A stretch of DNA of 64,000 bases, from the NCBI GenBank assembly GCA_030063045.1, contig JAQSEB010000108.1, forward strand, positions 186,001-250,000, in the 5' to 3' direction. The DNA comes from Pratylenchus scribneri. Its lineage: Eukaryota > Nematoda > Chromadorea > Rhabditida > Pratylenchidae. The notes under the pieces are model-generated. The model made no database searches. It was given only the letters and a program-made list of their open reading frames with translations, and was not told where the DNA came from. Positions 6,916 through 63,566 of the stretch are shown here, piece after piece (position 1 is the stretch's first letter; each line of letters begins with the position of its first letter). A program made the position numbers and the translations under genes.

Positions 6916-7488
6916 TTTTCATTATTATTCAATATTTTTTTTTATAATTCAAAATATTATTTGAATTAAACATTGTAATATTTTCAATTGGTTATATTTT
7001 AGCATAATTCTAAAAGAGACTATCTATTTATGTCTTGCATGTTACTCGGGTTGCTATATAATAATGAAATTAGATCCGTGAAAAATAATAATATAATTTT
7101 TTCTGAATTATTTAACAAGTAATTTGATTTTTATGTCGATATTAAAATCGTATAGAAGCTTTGCTATTATTTTACATTTTTATTTTTGTTCGACTACTAG
7201 CTAATGTTCACTAAATCAAATTATTTTCATCACAGAAGCATAGAAAAAATTAAATATAGGGTTAGGCTTGGGATCAGATTAGGATGAGCAAGGGTTAATA
7301 ACTAGAGTTTATAGTGAGATTTAGGATTTGTGTCTAGCTTCTTCGGGGAAATATATACAATAGTCAAATTTAGCTGGTATATCTATATTAATACCAATAT
7401 CTTTCTAATATTGAATTTGAATTTAGTGATAAATCTTTTGTCAGGTTAATTTTTACGGTTAATGCAATGAATTTCGACGGCTATTGAA
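6916..7488. other. Intergenic, no gene seen
   Basis: AT-rich spacer. Positions 7258-7328 carry loosely repeated TTAGG-like words (GGGTTAGGC, GATTAGG, GATTTAGG), too degenerate to call telomeric. The flank at 7445-7470 contains a GTTAATTTTTACG word that recurs inverted near 8915, so the following minisatellite may sit inside a larger inverted-repeat element. Confidence 0.4.
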
Positions 7489-8852
7489 ATGAGGGTGGCG
7501 GTCAATGGAATAAGGGTGGCTGTCAATGGAATGAGGTTGGCGGTCAATGGAATGAGGGTGGCGGTCAATGGAATGAGGGTGGCGGTCAATGGAATGAGGT
7601 TGGCGGTCAATGGAATGAGGGTGGCGGTCAATGGAATGAGGGTGACGGTCAATGGAATAAGGGTGGCTGTCAATGGAATGAGGGTGGCGGTCAATGGAAT
7701 GAGGGTGGCGGTCAATGGAATGAGGGTGACGGTCAATGGAATAAGGGTGGCTGTCAATGGAATGAGGGTGGCGGTCAATGGAATGAGGGTGGCGGTCAAT
7801 GGAATGAGGGTGACGGTCAATGGAATGAGGGTGGCGGTCAATGGAATGAGGGTGGCGGTCAATGGAATGAGGGTGGCGGTCAATGGAATGAGGGTGGCGG
7901 TCAATGGAATGAGGGTGGCGGTCAATGGAATGAGGGTGGCGGTCAATGGAATGAGGGTGGCTGTCAATGGAATGAGGGTGACGGTCAATGGAATGAGGGT
8001 GGCGGTCAATGGAATGAGGGTGACGGTCAATGGAATAAGGGTGGCTGTCAATGGAATGAGGGTGGCGGTCAATGGAATGAGGGTGACGGTCAATGGAATA
8101 AGGGTGGCTGTCAATGGAATGAGGGTGACGGTCAATGGAATGAGGGTGGCGGTCAATGGAATGAGGGTGACGGTCAATGGAATAAGGGTGGCTGTCAATG
8201 GAATGAGGGTGGCGGTCAATGGAATGAGGGTGGCGGTCAATGGAATGAGGGTGACGGTCAATGGAATAAGGGTGGCTGTCAATGGAATGAGGGTGACGGT
8301 CAATGGAATGAGGGTGGCGGTCAATGGAATGAGGGTGACGGTCAATGGAATAAGGGTGGCTGTCAATGGAATGAGGGTGGCGGTCAATGGAATGAGGGTG
8401 GCGGTCAATGGAATGAGGGTGACGGTCAATGGAATAAGGGTGGCTGTCAATGGAATGAGGGTGGCGGTCAATGGAATAAGGGTGGCTGTCAATGGAATGA
8501 GGGTGACGGTCAATGGAATGAGGGTGGCGGTCAATGGAATGAGGGTGACGGTCAATGGAATAAGGGTGGCTGTCAATGGAATGAGGGTGGCGGTCAATGG
8601 AATAAGGGTGGCTGTCAATGGAATGAGGGTGGCGGTCAATGGAATGAGGGTGGCGGTCAATGGAATGAGGGTGGCGGTCAATGGAATGAGGGTGGCGGTC
8701 AATGGAATGAGGGTGGCGGTCAATGGAATGAGGGTGGCGGTCAATGGAATGAGGGTGACGGTCAATGGAATAAGGGTGGCTGTCAATGGAATGAGGGTGG
8801 CGGTCAATGGAATGAGGGTGGCGGTCAATGGAATGAGGGTGGCGGTCAATGA
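7489..8852. repeat. 21-bp minisatellite, array 1 (about 65 units)
   Basis: Tandem copies of a 21-bp unit, consensus GGGTGGCGGTCAATGGAATGA, in head-to-tail register. Variants are GGTGACGG, GTTGGCGG and a linked type where AATAAGGGTGGCTG replaces AATGAGGGTGGCGG. The AATAAGGGTGGCTG type nearly always follows a GGTGACGG unit, so units were copied in blocks. Because 21 is a multiple of three, frames on both strands stay open for hundreds of codons (MRVAVNG on +, PLTATLI on -). These are shadows of the repeat, not genes. The plus strand is G-rich with repeated GGG and GG runs. Confidence 0.95.
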
Positions 8853-9459
8853 ATCAGTGATGGGCGCCATGGCGTTTGGCGTTATTTTTAGCCCTTCTTG
8901 GGCGTTTGGCGTCTGACGTAAAAATAAGAAAATTAACGCCAAAAAAGCCAAATTTGGATAATTTTTTATGGATGAAAGAGGAAAGTAGATGAAGATACAA
9001 TGGAAAGATAAGAGATTGTGTATGGAGCCAAATTTTTCGCTGCGTGGCCGTTTTTGAGCCAAATTTTTCGCTGCTTCATCATCATCATCATCATCTTGAT
9101 CATCTTCTTCATCATCATCTTCATCATCTTCTTCATCATCATCTTCATCATCTTCTTCATTATCATCTTCATCATCTCTTCTGCATCATTGTCCTATATA
9201 ATATATATAATATCTATTATAGATCCCCCCCCCCCACAATAATCACTTTGCCCCTTACCCGAAAAAAAAACTGGAAAGTATCAAAACCTGTTGTAATTGA
9301 CTTGTATAAAATTGAACAATTTGGACGATTTCACATTGGCAAACATATAAATTACTTTATAATTTCATAATAATTTATTTATCAGTAAAACGAAAAATTA
9401 TTTAATTAGTCAATTCAATATTATCAAATTTAGACCATCATTCATCCAACAAATTTATA
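8853..9459. repeat. Spacer with GCC/GCG inverted words and a CAT/CTT microsatellite
   Basis: After the minisatellite come repeated GGCGTTTGGCGT words, then two copies of CCAAATTTTTCGCTGC (9028-9074) that belong to a dispersed AT-rich repeat also seen near 10390 and 16210. Positions 9075-9180 are a CAT/CTT trinucleotide tract; open frames there are shadows. A C-run at 9227-9236 is followed within about 50 bp by GGAAAGTATCAAAA, an arrangement that recurs at 49315-49350. Confidence 0.6.
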
Positions 9460-41132: not shown

Positions 41133-41946
41133 TATTTTTTAATATATAATTTAAAAATTCAATTTATCTAATTATATATTTTTGTAAAAAATGCAATTTT
41201 AAATAAATTTTATTTCTACATTGTTACTTTTTTTCTAATATTTCTCAACTCAAAATAAGCAACAACATAAAAATTAAAGAAATAGGGAACCTATAGTAGT
41301 AAAACCAATGCTAACAGTTAACATCTATGATTTAAATTAAATGGAATTGGACCTTTACTAATTAAGCGAACTCTATAAATTTTTAATTTTTTTATAACGT
41401 ATACTAGTAAAAATTCATCCTGCTGATGGGCCAGTGGCCTGTCTAATTATTTTACGCTTATAATTTAGAAAGATATTTTTAAAAAATATAAATTATTTTG
41501 TTTGTGCTAAAATTAATGTATGACTTTCTCGAAAATCTAACAAAAGTCGATGCTGGATTTGGGATTCCGAAACCAGTCGCAAGCGCGCCTGGTTTAAATT
41601 TGTACTTCCGCGTCGGAAAAGCGCGGGGCGCTTTAAAGTAGAATCGGTTTCTGCGCGACCCTGAACCCATCAGAAAAAATCTAGTTTTTTGAGATGTGCA
41701 CTGAAAAGTTGCCCTTATGATGTGCATCTCCCAAAACCTAAAAAATCCCTGGAAAAACCGCTAAATTTTTTGAAGTGAAAATGTCGAAAGCATCTTTATA
41801 TATATAACCAAAAGCTAAAAATCCCTAGAAATGCTCAAATTTGATTTAATGTGCAAATGTCGAAAGCATCTTTTTATATATAACATGGGATGTTCCTCTA
41901 TATAAATATGTTATTATTCCTCTAACGCATTTGTGGCCGATCACTA
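41133..41946. other. Intergenic, repeat words only
   Basis: A GC-richer patch (41525-41680) and a direct repeat AATGTCGAAAGCATCTTT at about 41782 and 41857, just before the second minisatellite. No gene seen. Confidence 0.4.
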
Positions 41947-43362
41947 AAATGAGAGTGGCGGTCAATGGAATGAGGGTGGCGATCAATGGAATGATGGTGG
42001 CTGGTGGTCAATGGAATAAGGATGGCTGTCAATGGAATGAGGGTGACGGTCAATGGAATGAGGGTGGCGGTCAATGGAATGAGGGTGACGGTCAATGGAA
42101 TGAGGGTGGCGGTCAATGGAATAAGGGTGGCTGTCAATGGAATGAGGGAGGCGGTCAATGGAATGAGGGTGACGGTCAATGGAATGAGGGTGGCGGTCAA
42201 TGGAATGAGGGTGGCGGTCAATGGAATGAGGGTGACGGTCAATGGAATGAGGGTGGCGGTCAATGGAATGAGGGTGACGGTCAATGGAATGAGGGTGGCG
42301 GTCAATGGAATGAGGGTGACGGTCAATGGAATGAGGGTGGCGGTCAATGGAATGAGGGTGACGGTCAATGGAATAAGGGTGGCTGTCAATGGAATGAGGG
42401 AGGCGGTCAATGGAATGAGGGTGACGGTCAATGGAATGAGGGTGGCGGTCAATGGAATGAGGGTGACGGTCAATGGAATAAGGGTGGCTGTCAATGGAAT
42501 GAGGGAGGCGGTCAATGGAATGAGGGTGACGGTCAATGGAATGAGGGTGGCGGTCAATGGAATGAGGGTGACGGTCAATGGAATAAGGGTGGCTGTCAAT
42601 GGAATGAGGGTGACGGTCAATGGAATAAGGGTGGCTGTCAATGGAATGAGGGTGACGGTCAATGGAATAAGGGTGGCTGTCAATGGAATGAGGGAGGCGG
42701 TCAATGGAATGAGGGTGACGGTCAATGGAATGAGGGTGGCGGTCAATGGAATGAGGGTGACGGTCAATGGAATGAGGGAGGCGGTCAATGGAATGAGGGA
42801 GGCGGTCAATGGAATGAGGGTGACGGTCAATGGAATGAGGGTGACGGTCAATGGAATGAGGGTGGCGGTCAATGGAATGAGGGAGGCGGTCAATGGAATG
42901 AGGGAGGCGGTCAATGGAATGAGGGAGGCGGTCAATGGAATGAGGGTGACGGTCAATGGAATGAGGGTGGCGGTCAATGGAATGAGGGTGGCGGTCAATG
43001 GAATGAGGGTGACGGTCAATGGAATGAGGGTGACGGTCAATGGAATGAGGGTGACGGTCAATGGAATAAGGGTGGCTGTCAATGGAATGAGGGAGGCGGT
43101 CAATGGAATGAGGGTGACGGTCAATGGAATGAGGGTGGCGGTCAATGGAATGAGGGTGACGGTCAATGGAATAAGGGTGGCTGTCAATGGAATGAGGGTG
43201 ACGGTCAATGGAATAAGGGTGGCTGTCAATGGAATGAGGGTGACGGTCAATGGAATAAGGGTGGCGGTCAATGGAATGAGGGTGGCTCTCAATGGAATGA
43301 GGGTAGCGATCAATGAAATGAGGGTGGCAGAAAATGGAATGAGGGTGGCGGTCAATGGAATG
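41947..43362. repeat. 21-bp minisatellite, array 2 (about 67 units)
   Basis: Same 21-bp family and orientation as array 1, with an extra variant (GGAGGCGG). Variants recur in a fixed order: AATAAGGGTGGCTG, GGAGGCGG, GGTGACGG, GGTGGCGG, GGTGACGG. This makes a higher-order unit of about 105 bp that repeats several times. Frames on both strands are open for over 450 codons purely because the unit is 21 bp. Edge units are more diverged, as expected of a tandem array. Confidence 0.95.
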
Positions 43363-44423
43363 TGATGTCGACAAAAATTTAAATGCTAATTGCTAATTCA
43401 TATTCTCTAGATTTTTAGGTAATGCTGACATAGTTGATCAATATTTACTTTCTCCTCCAAAAGTTACAAACTACATCAAAAAAATGTTATTGAGGAAATT
43501 ATATATTATATAAATATTTAAATATAAAATAATATATAATTGTGGTTACAGTATTTTGTCTATTAACTAATATATATCAAAGCAATCCTATAATTTTATA
43601 AAATTTTTAAAACATTTTGCTAAATTCTTCGTTTCATTAGAGCAATTTTTAATCGATCTATCAACCATTGAAATTTACCACTCATTTATGGCCAAGAAAT
43701 TAATAATGCTCTTTTTTTATTATATTTTGCTTCTTTTTAATTATAATATTTTCCAATTTCTGTTTTTTTCTTTCTTTTCATTTCATCCAAATATTTAAAT
43801 AAATAATGGTATAAAATTTGCAATATTATATATATTCCAAAAAATTGATTTGATGCTAAAAATTCTGGTTCGCCAATATCGTTTCATCTATGGAAAGAGC
43901 TAAAAAAATTCAGCAGAGTTCTCTCCGCTATCACTATCTCATTTTTATTGGTAAAATTGAATAAAAAAAATATACGACTAAAAGCGTATGAGCTGGTTTT
44001 AATTTTATTAAAAGAAAAATTAAAGTGATGCAAATTTTCATGAGCGAATTGTGATGAATGGCGAAAGAAAAAGAAGATATCTATTTTGATTTAATCTATT
44101 TATATAAATTGGATGAAAAGAGAAAAATGAAATCGAGTTTGCATTCTCTATAAATCCTATTTTATTCCTAAGAAAAAATTTTCAAATTCTCTGGAAAATT
44201 TTGTTGACCAAATTATTTGTATCAATTTTTATCCAGCATTTTGTTGCTAACTTGCTAAATATTCAACAATGGCAATGCTTTTTATTTCATTTTTAGCTAA
44301 TTTTGTCTTCAATAAAAAGAAAATTTTTATAACAATGTCACTAGTCTTTATTTATAATTAAATAAGCACATTTTTTTAAATTAATATTTTAGCTCTTTTT
44401 TTCATCACAATTATATTTTAAAT
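43363..44423. other. Intergenic, no recognised gene
   Basis: AT-rich upstream region of the METTL24-like copy A. Positions 43417-43515 could be read as a short exon (ADIVDQYLLSPPKVTNYIKK then stop), unrecognised and without partners. Confidence 0.3.
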
Positions 44424-56300: not shown

Positions 56301-56908
56301 ATTGTGGAAGGGTTACTGGATTTGGGAGCCGATATATTGCAAACAACTGTGGACACTAATACAACAGAAAAGACTACTTCATTCACGGATATTGTGAACA
56401 AATATGGTGATAAGGAGATTGAGATTCTCAAAATGGATATTGAAGGTAAAATGCTGTTTTTAAATATTGTGAATAAAATATTATTATCCTGGATTGATAA
56501 AAATATAAGTTACCCGATTCAGTACATTGATCAACATGCTAATATTATCAGCTTAAAATTTTTGTAATAATTAATTGATAAGTTTCAAAAACAGTCGAAT
56601 TTTTAATTTTATTGCTCCAATTAATGCCAATTTATTTTTTAGGAACGGAGGAAAAAATCATCGATCAAATATTTCAATTTCCCATATGCCAAATTTTGAT
56701 TGAAATACATGGGTATTATTTTACAAAGGAAGTAGAAGATGTTTATAAAACTGTACAAATACTCAAGAAATTCTCGGCCCATGGATTTTGGCTTTATTCG
56801 AATGAATTGTATCCAACATTTTGGAATGTTCGTGAATATTCTTGGATTCATCAGAATTGTATGGGAAGATATGGAGTGAATACAATATTGGGAAAATATA
56901 TTGTCTAA
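53387..56908 (+). CDS. METTL24-like methyltransferase, copy B, 299 aa
   Basis: Tandem paralogue of copy A. Exons: 53387-53510, 53657-53814, 54052-54240, 56283-56445, 56643-56908, totalling 300 codons with the stop. The anchor is VLTILLFIIFVFLF. Core blocks are RCVDLLRLGSVHDGGKLICNP, NCVVYSFGINADISYEQDF, EIEILKMDIEGTEEKIIDQIF (GAE changed to GTE), ICQILIEIHGYYF and EYSWIHQNCM. The donor after exon 3 is GCAAGT where copy A has GTAAGC, so this intron is GC-AG. That intron is 2.0 kb (458 nt in copy A), swollen by repeats at 54.7-56.2 kb. The 3' exon is far more similar to copy A at DNA level than exon 1 is. Confidence 0.92.
55210..55290 (+). other. tRNA-like segment (SINE head or tRNA pseudogene)
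   Basis: An A-box-like TTAGCTCAATGTT and a B-box GGGTTCGAAGCCC lie about 40 bp apart, as in tRNA genes. Acceptor and anticodon stems do not fold convincingly, so it is probably a tRNA-derived short interspersed element rather than a working tRNA. Confidence 0.45.
55328..55791. mobile_element. 464-bp TIR element with ACGACAAA subrepeats
   Basis: The ends are GGGGCCAATCCAAATTAA and its complement TTAATTTGGATTGGCCCC. Just inside both ends are repeated CTCGACAAACGACAAA words in opposite orientation, and the CCAATCCAAATTAACACTCG end is itself duplicated internally at about 55421. No coding capacity. Confidence 0.8.
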
Positions 56909-59851: not shown

Positions 59852-60307
59852 ATGAAAAATTCCTCAATAATTTCAAGTCATTATCGTCAAAAAATAGTCC
59901 ATCAAAATTATGCATATTTCCACGATGGTAAAAATAAGGACGGGAAAATTTTATTTTGGCGCTGCGATCGAGCGAATATTAAATGCCCTGGACGTATTTG
60001 GACAACAGTGGATGGGGAATTCATTCAAATGAGAACTGAACATCGCTGTACTTCATCTGGAGATCATATTGAACTACAAAAATTGAAAACATTTGATAAA
60101 ACCATTCCAATTTTGGCCACTCTCAGAAATATATCATTTCTCTTATTTTTTCGCCCCTTACATTTTTGGGCCAAAAATATTGCCCCACTTAATCCTTTCA
60201 TTTTGTTCATATTTTGCCCATTTTCCCATTTTGTGCCCTTCATTTTATGTATATTTATAGCCACTTTGAGCATTCAGTCGATGCTCTACAATTTTTTAAA
60301 ATCATAA
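59852..60307 (+). CDS. FLYWCH-type zinc-finger fragment
   Basis: The first 75 residues show the FLYWCH-like pattern: YAYFHDGKNKDGKILFWRCD, then IKCPGRIWTT and TEHRCTS. This is aromatic-rich, with Cys at WRC and KCPGR and a terminal His, as in domains found in nematode transcription regulators and MULE-type transposon proteins. An AG acceptor-like ATAG directly precedes the ATG, so this may be an internal exon. The second half (after about residue 85) is low-complexity and probably not coding; an unlabelled donor may end the true exon earlier. Whether it is a host gene or transposon remnant is unclear. Confidence 0.5.
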   Translation: MKNSSIISSHYRQKIVHQNYAYFHDGKNKDGKILFWRCDRANIKCPGRIWTTVDGEFIQMRTEHRCTSSGDHIELQKLKTFDKTIPILATLRNISFLLFFRPLHFWAKNIAPLNPFILFIFCPFSHFVPFILCIFIATLSIQSMLYNFLKS

Positions 60308-61317: not shown

Positions 61318-63566
61318 TTAAATTTTTCTCAAAGCAAAAACATAATGCTTGGAGAATTCTTTATAAAATTCTTCCAAATCTAATTTAATTGGCATTTCAT
61401 CCATATAAAATGTGTTGACCAATTCATAACCTGAATAATTTGCTTTAATAAATTTTTAAAATAATTAATCAAAATTATTTTTTTCTTATCTAAAATTAAA
61501 AAAAATTCAATGGAAATATTTAATATTTAACTGATAGGATATATTGGATTCTATTTATTTTGTATACTTAAATATTACTCGGAAGCGGATTTTTAGGTTG
61601 CAAAAATCGTAAAATAGGTGGTTTTTTGGAAAATTTACTCAAAATAGATTTCAAACCCCTAAAATAGGTAATTTTTGCAATTTTTAATGCATTTTTAATA
61701 TGAAATTTTCTCTCAAAAAAGTGCCAAAATAGGTAAAATTGGTCAAAAAAATTTTATCAAAAAAGTAAAATAAATGCTCAAAAATAATATTTTTGTGCTT
61801 TTCACATCAAATCTGATGCATGAAAAAAATAGGTAAAACCTAAAAATCCGCTCCCTAAATATTATATCAATTAATCCTTTTTGAATTTTCTAAAATAATT
61901 CAATATAAATTTGCTTTTAATAGTAGAATGATTAATTAAATATTTTTATATTTATCTTCGATTAATTTAACAATAAATTAATCTCAAGCAAATAATTTCA
62001 ATATACTAAATAACAATAAAATATGTTAATATAATAATTTAATAAAAATTATTTTTTTTTAACTCAAAAGTTCTTAATAAAATTCAAATGACTCACCAGC
62101 AAACATCATCGGTAATCTTATTCTTCCATAAGTTCTATGGCAATTATATCCAACATCATCCCAGCCAATGGGTATTCCAAGAAATAAAAAACCTCCTCGT
62201 TTCAATATGCATCTAATTTTTTGGTAATCTTTCGGAATTGTAGTCCCAAAATTTTTTTTTTTTTGGATTTTTCTTCAAAAGTATAGAAGATGTATCTGTG
62301 ATCCTTTTTGTCATATCTTATCATCTTGTATTGTAAGATAATGCCGACCTTTACCAAGAAAAGGCCAATTTGGAACCAAGGTCAATTTTCAAAATATTTT
62401 TAAAATAGACATAGGTATTATAGCTCAATCTACGCGGCTCGCCGAGCTGAATTCAATGTTACTGCTTTTATTTGTAAATATTGCAATATAACCAAAAACC
62501 AAGTTAAGTCCAAAAAATATTTGTCATGATAAGATATTTTGACTTTTAATTTGGTAGTAATTTAATATTTATAAATAAAAAATGGTAATACCAAATACCC
62601 TAGGATTCCGATCGCAGAACTGCGTCAATTGAGCTATAAGATACCTATTTTAAAAATATTTTGAAAATTGGTTTTGGTCCCACCTTGGCAATATCTTGGT
62701 AAAGTCGGCATTATTTTATCACAATGAAAAGATATGACAAAATGGATGCCAGATTCGTGTTCGATGCCCCTGAAAAAACGCAAAAAAAATTTTTTAAAAA
62801 TCCGAAAAAAATTTTATGAGACCGCAATTCCGAAATACCTAATTTTTTGCATTTCCTTTATATCGCCAAAAGGATCAATTAGATCGCCATAACGACCGAG
62901 GCCACTGTGTTCAATGCTCGAAAAACTTACAATGAAATCAAATTTCTCATTAAATCTAAAAAAAATATAAAAATTTCTAATAAACTACAAATTATATTAC
63001 GATTCCCAATTCTTGGCCAAATCTGTGGCCAACATAAAAGTGATGTCCGGATGTTCAATTTTAAGCTGTTGATAGTCAATTGTTGTAAGCGATTTGGCTC
63101 CATTTGCCAAACATAATATTTCCACCCATGGAGTTTGTGACCCAATTACGGCACCACTCTTTCCAGCAATGCTATGAAATTTGGTAGCATGATAAACAGC
63201 CACTACAAAAAATTACTCATTGAAAAATGTTGTTTATATAATTTGATAGTTTTTTTATTCGATTAATATTGTTATTGATTTATTATAATTGAAATTCTAT
63301 TGATATTTTTTCTTACATGAATCACTGTAGGAATACTTGGAGAATTGCTTTGCCTTGGCCTTATTGACTTCGTCTTCAATATGTTTTTTGCTCCACAACC
63401 TTTCTTTACTAAGTTTTTCAACATTAGAAGGTTCATTGTTGAATTTTTCATCGATAAAGCAATCAGACATTGTTGTATAGCCATTTAGGGTATAATTTGT
63501 ACGCAACAAATGCTTCGGATCACCATCCGCAGGAATATCAGCAACTTGTTGCCATTTTTGGAAAAT
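61318..63566 (-). CDS. DUF268 family protein, 5' end missing
   Basis: Nematode-expanded DUF268 family; the fold resembles SAM methyltransferases (my reading), function unknown. Exons seen: 63317-63566, 63001-63202, 62839-62955, 62097-62212, 61318-61430, all in phase. Family blocks are GSQTPWVEILCLANGAKSLT, TIDYQQLKIEHPD, FDFIVSFSSIEHSGLGRYGD, DPFGDIKEMQKIRCILKRGG and FLFLGIPIGWDDVGYNCHRT, with RLPMMF and the C-terminus HYVFALRKI. The first visible exon begins in mid-protein (IFQKWQQVADIPADGDP), so at least one upstream exon with the membrane anchor lies beyond 63566 or outside the window. The intron 62213-62838 is exactly a transposon plus one target-duplication copy. The last intron carries another transposon. 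Confidence 0.88.
61578..61855. mobile_element. 278-bp MITE with 9-bp target duplication
   Basis: The inverted ends GGAAGCGGATTTTTAGGTT and AACCTAAAAATCCGCTCCC are flanked by TAAATATTA on both sides (61569-61577 and 61856-61864). A 9-bp duplication is typical of Mutator-like elements. The interior repeats AAAATAGGT. Lies in the last intron of the DUF268 gene. Confidence 0.85.
62224..62838. mobile_element. 615-bp TIR element that forms an intron (introner-like)
   Basis: The ends are GTAATCTTTCGGAATTGTAG and the complement of GACCGCAATTCCGAAATAC, with T-rich stretches and TTTTCAAAATATTTTTAAAA-type arms further in. It is flanked by CTAATTTTTTG on both sides (62213-62223 and 62839-62849), an 11-bp duplication. 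On the gene's strand the element starts GTATTTCGG (donor) and the duplication ends TTAG (acceptor), so the intron 62213-62838 is exactly the element plus one duplication copy. Inner palindromes include GCCGACCTTTACCAAGA and its inverse. No transposase is present. Confidence 0.85.

Follow-up and report, generated by a model that had tools for sequence, protein, structure and literature searches.

The window that we analyse is the whole 64,000-nt stretch of Pratylenchus scribneri contig JAQSEB010000108.1 (here C108), positions 186,001 to 250,000. On its minus strand lies a DUF268 gene that runs from at least 63566 down to a stop codon at 61318. The five exons that we read contain no stops and no frameshifts. 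When the insert at 62838-62213 is removed, they join into 265 residues that match Pfam DUF268 with an E-value of 4.1e-60, and the best protein match of the joined product is DdX_11222 of Ditylenchus destructor, at 67% identity. The insert splits the frame between the codons for QKIR and CILK. Joined, the exons read DIKEMQKIR followed by CILKRGG in one continuous DUF268 frame; if the insert stays in, the frame runs into a stop within the element, 46 codons from the start of the exon at 62955. This bears out the preliminary description, in which GT-AG removal at the edges of an inverted-repeat element in this exon restores the codons. The features of the locus are as follows, in window coordinates.

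63001-63202, minus strand: next DUF268 exon upstream; it is followed by the intron 63000-62956, which the paralogous loci C159 and C112 have in the same place
62839-62955, minus strand: exon before the new intron, ending in a G that is also base 1 of the element
62840-62848, minus strand: target site duplication, exonic copy, AAAAAATTA
62223-62839, minus strand: element classed as a Merlin MITE, 617 bp, GG...CC, a near-full-length inverted repeat; ends placed against 24 other copies, arms 24.9% different
62213-62838, minus strand: inferred new intron of 626 nt, with donor GT (element bases 2-3) at 62838-62837 and acceptor AG at 62214-62213
62273-62274, minus strand: competing acceptor AG (exon start 62272), which would add 60 nt with the frame kept
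62214-62222, minus strand: intronic copy of the target site duplication, AAAAAATTA, ending in the A that begins the acceptor AG
62097-62212, minus strand: exon downstream of the new intron
61318-61430, minus strand: last exon, with the stop codon, intact; preceded by the intron 62096-61431

Read along the minus strand, exon 62955-62839 ends with ATGCAAAAAATTAG, the insert opens with GTATTTCGGAATTG and closes with CCGAAAGATTAC, after which comes CAAAAAATTAG, and the downstream exon begins at 62212 with ATGCATATTG. A separate inverted-repeat element, at 61581-61855 with arms GGAAGCGGATTTTTAGGTT and AACCTAAAAATCCGCTCCC, occupies the interior of the next intron; the donor of that intron is kept in C159, which makes it a natural contrast to the new intron. 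Elsewhere in the window, two long tandem arrays (7446-9185 and 41850-43385) have similar units with several frames open on both strands, and translate into repeats of the QWNEGGG and LIPLTAT type. An ORF at 59852-60307 encodes a FLYWCH zinc finger (Pfam E-value 4.8e-9), a domain that often accompanies transposons.

The element belongs to a family dispersed in the genome. Searching with the insert gives at least 96 matches, merged into at least 40 places, a lower bound on the copy count, with 40 of 760 first-look candidates scored. The family end pattern occurs at 305 ends in the whole genome (156 forward and 149 reverse) and at none in the control, which corresponds to about 150 copies if most ends are paired; the ends of the window copy itself have changed too much to fit the pattern. 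We read 30 copies, chosen for their likeness to the window copy, such that the nearest kin of the others may be absent from the sample. Both ends were found in 25, and the other five loci had no end pair. The 25 copies are 606-637 bp long, consist mostly of inverted repeat, and start with GGTAATCCTTCGG or close variants. Their ends, located by a motif beginning G[GT] (the duplications fit the ends so placed), start with GG in 49 of 50 cases, the exception being one end of copy L043, which starts with GT, and with GGT in 48 of 50. The duplications are a perfect 8 bp in 23 copies, carry a single mismatch in one, and measure 9 bp in the window copy.

This comparison moves the edges of the element. 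Identical 11-bp repeats stand at 62839-62849 and 62213-62223, and the preliminary description took them for the target duplication, flanking an element of 615 bp whose first two bases were the donor GT, with the acceptor AG as the last two bases of the second duplication copy. The inverted repeat does lie between identical 11-bp copies. The 25 copies place its edges at GG and CC, so that the element is 617 bp and an 11-bp duplication is rejected in favour of one of 9 bp, AAAAAATTA; the C and G at the outer edges of the 11-bp repeat coincide by chance with the element's own terminal bases. The donor becomes element bases 2-3, and the acceptor AG takes its A from the end of the duplication and its G from the target base that follows. 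The run of A in AAAAAATTA makes slippage from 8 to 9 bp plausible, and Merlin makes 9 too. Judged by eye, the ends of the window copy differ by one 3-bp gap and three changes. In a search for a subfamily with a GGTAATCTTTCGG-type end, only the window copy matched, so we find no closer source of the element.

Merlin elements are described in a passage of PMC8101967 as having 5'-GG ends, 8-9-bp duplications and a transposase of the DDE_Tnp_IS1595 type, and an excerpt of PMC11118728 places them among the predominant transposon superfamilies of the plant-parasitic nematodes studied there. The genome has 62 matches to PF12762 (DDE_Tnp_IS1595). Among the end pairs listed, drawn from 100 of the 305 ends, at least two of the 62 matches lie inside longer elements with family ends:

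C15:18863-19054: PF12762 match within end pair C15:18117-19716
C16:2152791-2153009: PF12762 match within end pair C16:2152050-2153585

A third, C124:951340-951558, has one family end nearby, at C124:950752. The window family has all three of the Merlin features, namely GG ends, duplications of 8-9 bp and an IS1595-type transposase enclosed by family ends, and we therefore classify the element by sequence as a Merlin MITE. The Mutator-like origin first proposed does not hold: duplications are 8 bp in 23 of 25 copies (9-11 bp in Mutator), and the partner transposase is of the IS1595 type. Among the end pairs listed, none encloses any of the 39 MULE matches. Of the IS1595-type matches, 17 of 62 are clustered within 30 kb (C64:1999880-2029413), 16 of these with internal stops.

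Three other DUF268 loci were found in the genome, on contigs C159, C112 and C97, and all three read ATGCAAAAGATTAGATGC through the site, free of an intron. The upstream intron (63000-62956) is in the same place in C159 and C112, which argues that the paralogues did not simply lose introns here; in C97 only its last bases were read. The donor of the downstream intron is likewise kept in C159. The 255 bp read in C97 are the same in C112, and we therefore count the two as one lineage. C159 differs from the window gene by 7.4% (26 of 351 nt), and the two contigs are collinear: they share the order and orientation of an acyltransferase-like ORF (66% protein identity), relatives of ORF 56582-56908 (72%), DUF268 and one further relative. 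The names acyltransferase-like and FkbM-like rest on sub-threshold Pfam matches, of 18.5 and 19.4 bits, and ORF 56582-56908 itself has no Pfam match. The divergence of C108 from C159 and the identity of C97 and C112 may go back to an old duplication, of a segment or of the genome, together with haplotypes left uncollapsed. Because three other DUF268 loci, one of them on a collinear contig, have no intron at the site, the intron most likely represents a gain rather than an insertion into an old intron. The birth of an intron from a DNA transposon, as originally put forward, is well supported by the empty sites in all three paralogues; the check that had been proposed, for an intron at the same codon in paralogues lacking the element, was run and found none.

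Taking C112 as the outgroup, we count on the window branch, after its separation from C159, 9 synonymous changes and 2 non-synonymous ones over 117 codons (P for neutrality 9.6e-5), and on the C159 branch 6 and 7 (P 0.067). If anything, the copy bearing the insertion is the more constrained of the two. The dN/dS of the window gene against C159 is 0.13, and the selection estimate spans the time before and after the insertion. The window protein has Leu at position 176, where at least 90% of 21 sequences have Pro, a hint of relaxed constraint.

The window element is the most decayed of the 25 copies. It diverges by 21.6% from the family majority, and the others by 5.2-15.3%, a comparison in which those 24 look slightly closer, as the majority was built from them with the window copy excluded. 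Its arms differ from each other by 24.9% (2.4-22.0% in the others), its terminal branch is 0.29 (at most 0.11 in the other 24), and its arms carry 36 changes found in no other copy read (0-14 in the others). We do not use arm divergence as a plain clock: other copies with arms 17-22% different keep perfect 8-bp duplications, so in those copies much of the arm difference predates insertion. Arm difference being no clean clock, the age argument is based on the private changes, which point to roughly 0.06 or more changes per site after the insertion, by our estimate from 36 changes in about 580 arm sites. In simulations with a frame of 795 nt, made by repeating a 351-nt stretch, the probability that an unconstrained frame stays intact is 0.039 at 0.05 changes per site, 0.002 at 0.10 and 0 (0 of 4000 runs) at 0.15. 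The arm differences of the window copy could be mostly inherited from its source copy, as is seen in other copies; the insertion would then be younger and the argument from constraint weaker.

Of 389 GT-AG pairs tried at the locus, 8 keep the frame and one restores the exact codons. The exact acceptor, AAAAAATTAG, has 3 of 8 matches to the TTTTTCAG consensus; the acceptors of the three remaining introns in the gene have 6, 7 and 7. The exact acceptor has no T-rich tract, and a section of PMC9169325 reports such a tract in all 168 new Caenorhabditis introns. The acceptor before 62272 scores best of the eight frame-keeping pairs (12 of 16 consensus matches, versus 9 for the exact pair), and the acceptor before 62122, which would delete 90 nt (30 residues) with the frame kept, also scores above the exact pair. 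An AG near the element's far end (CCGAAG in the family, CCGAAAG in the window copy) would, when used with the element donor, add 16 nt and break the frame by our hand count, and it is absent from the frame-keeping pairs with that donor. In a model of the locus at birth, built from the family majority element with 9 bp duplicated, the 62272 acceptor is missing and the exact pair is the sole frame-keeping pair without codon deletion; if 8 bp are duplicated, the model also permits in-frame additions of three sizes, 102, 123 and 150 nt. We infer that the spliceosome removes the element, mainly at these edges.

We think it probable that a non-autonomous Merlin insertion in a DUF268 coding exon became a precise intron. 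An IS1595-type transposase encoded elsewhere in the genome would have mobilised the MITE, which would have inserted in the coding exon of one DUF268 copy at AAAAAATTA/G. With family ends that read GGT both ways, the element would have brought along a 5' splice site, G/GT, whichever its orientation, and the target would have given the 3' splice site, the duplicated bases ending in A and the next target base being G. The element's first G would stand in for the target G, such that the removal of 626 nt returns the old codons exactly. The coincidence of splice sites and element edges would then take one chance event, at about 4-5% per exon insertion, followed by survival of the spliceable one.

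The insertion may instead have killed the gene, which would now be a dead copy with a GT-AG fit due to luck. By chance, about 4% of insertions would have an AG where it is needed (AG makes up 3.75% of the dinucleotides in the window and 4.7% in the two exons). The weak acceptor and the change of a conserved Pro to Leu fit a dead copy as well. We hold this to be unlikely given five exons read without a stop or frameshift, a window branch under purifying selection, though a late insertion is possible, and an element that as the most decayed of 25 is no fresh insertion. Imprecise splicing, from the element's own donor to the acceptor before 62272, would add 20 residues, alone or as an alternative form, and is compatible with the precise reading. 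That pair keeps the frame open and tops the eight frame-keeping pairs by score, against which stand the absence of extra residues there in all 20 aligned homologues and the absence of the acceptor from the at-birth model with the 9-bp duplication, which would make it a later addition; we regard imprecise splicing as somewhat improbable. It would be very surprising if an old intron had been replaced or filled by the element and then lost by the paralogues. Intron loss is commoner than gain in nematodes according to a portion of PMC9169325, but separate losses would be needed in the C159 lineage and in the C112/C97 lineage, and the duplication would have to sit exactly on both exon edges with no remnant of the old intron.

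A wider claim is that the Merlin family is an introner proper, the maker of many introns in this genome. The locus itself has what defines an introner case, as far as sequence can tell: a transposon in an exon, splice sites at its edges, and a site that is empty in relatives. That part of the introner label first given to it stands; the part that implies an intron-making family finds no support in the copies read or in the AG counts. A ready donor, GGT, is present in 48 of the 50 ends, and an AG follows ten ends, of which one locus has been read. Genome-wide, an AG at the acceptor position after 10 of 305 family ends is 3.3%; AG makes up 3.75% of the window, and the family therefore shows no preference for AG sites. 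Among the 24 other end-resolved copies, none has an AG at the needed spot together with a long open frame, the exactly restoring position being the one tested, and so none is an exact coding intron. One of the 25 copies read reaches the splice boundaries as an intron, and elsewhere in the genome the search for a group of similar introns consists of AG counts. An introner proper therefore seems quite unlikely to us. The ten AG-flanked ends are candidate introns: C8:2090673, C28:25203, C47:887148, C48:379355, C63:422140, C90:1162881, C108:347257, C124:950752, C138:1053074 and C202:63152. At C108:347257 (copy L014), the one read, there is no long open frame.

Giroux, in 1994, reportedly described a de novo intron from maize Ds, a single non-autonomous hAT element in a plant exon; the present case is a Merlin in a nematode, and both are single non-autonomous elements in exons. 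Rushforth and Anderson, in 1996, are said to have found C. elegans Tc1 insertions in exons to be spliced out, mostly imprecisely, in laboratory mutants. These too are nematode DNA transposons in exons, whereas the insertion described here is natural, old and apparently retained. Transposon insertion is a recognised route of intron gain in a passage of PMC3443670, and introners are its mass form in the pages of PMC9860276 (Gozashti et al. 2022) that treat them. There, introners insert in exons with one splice site carried and the other from the target, as here; many families have terminal inverted repeats and a target duplication and usually restore the coding sequence, like the window case, and those of Chrysochromulina carry the 5' site and co-opt the 3' site in the same way. 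The window case differs from these introners in being a single intron, with no set of similar introns and no AG preference. Among animals and land plants, the same pages report introners in only two groups, both of them animals, and the string 'nematod' is absent from the main text. In the literature searched, which covers few subscription journals, we recognised no nematode introner or Merlin-derived intron among the matches listed; in the available text of PMC6444547, 'Merlin' and 'intron gain' both occur.

Sources of new introns are rarely found. In PMC9169325, which covers 104 nematodes, the portion on gains traces the source sequence for none of 168 new Caenorhabditis introns. Here source family, footprint, empty site and surviving gene come together. 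We suggest, tentatively and with more doubt than conviction, that Merlin elements with a GG end followed by T are pre-adapted intron makers that supply a 5' splice site in both orientations, and that decayed Merlin MITEs may account for some of the nematode intron gains whose source is unknown. If this is true, any exon insertion with a duplication that ends in A and is followed by G would yield a precise intron, and the rule, a GGT end with AG at the duplication border, is searchable in any genome with Merlin elements.
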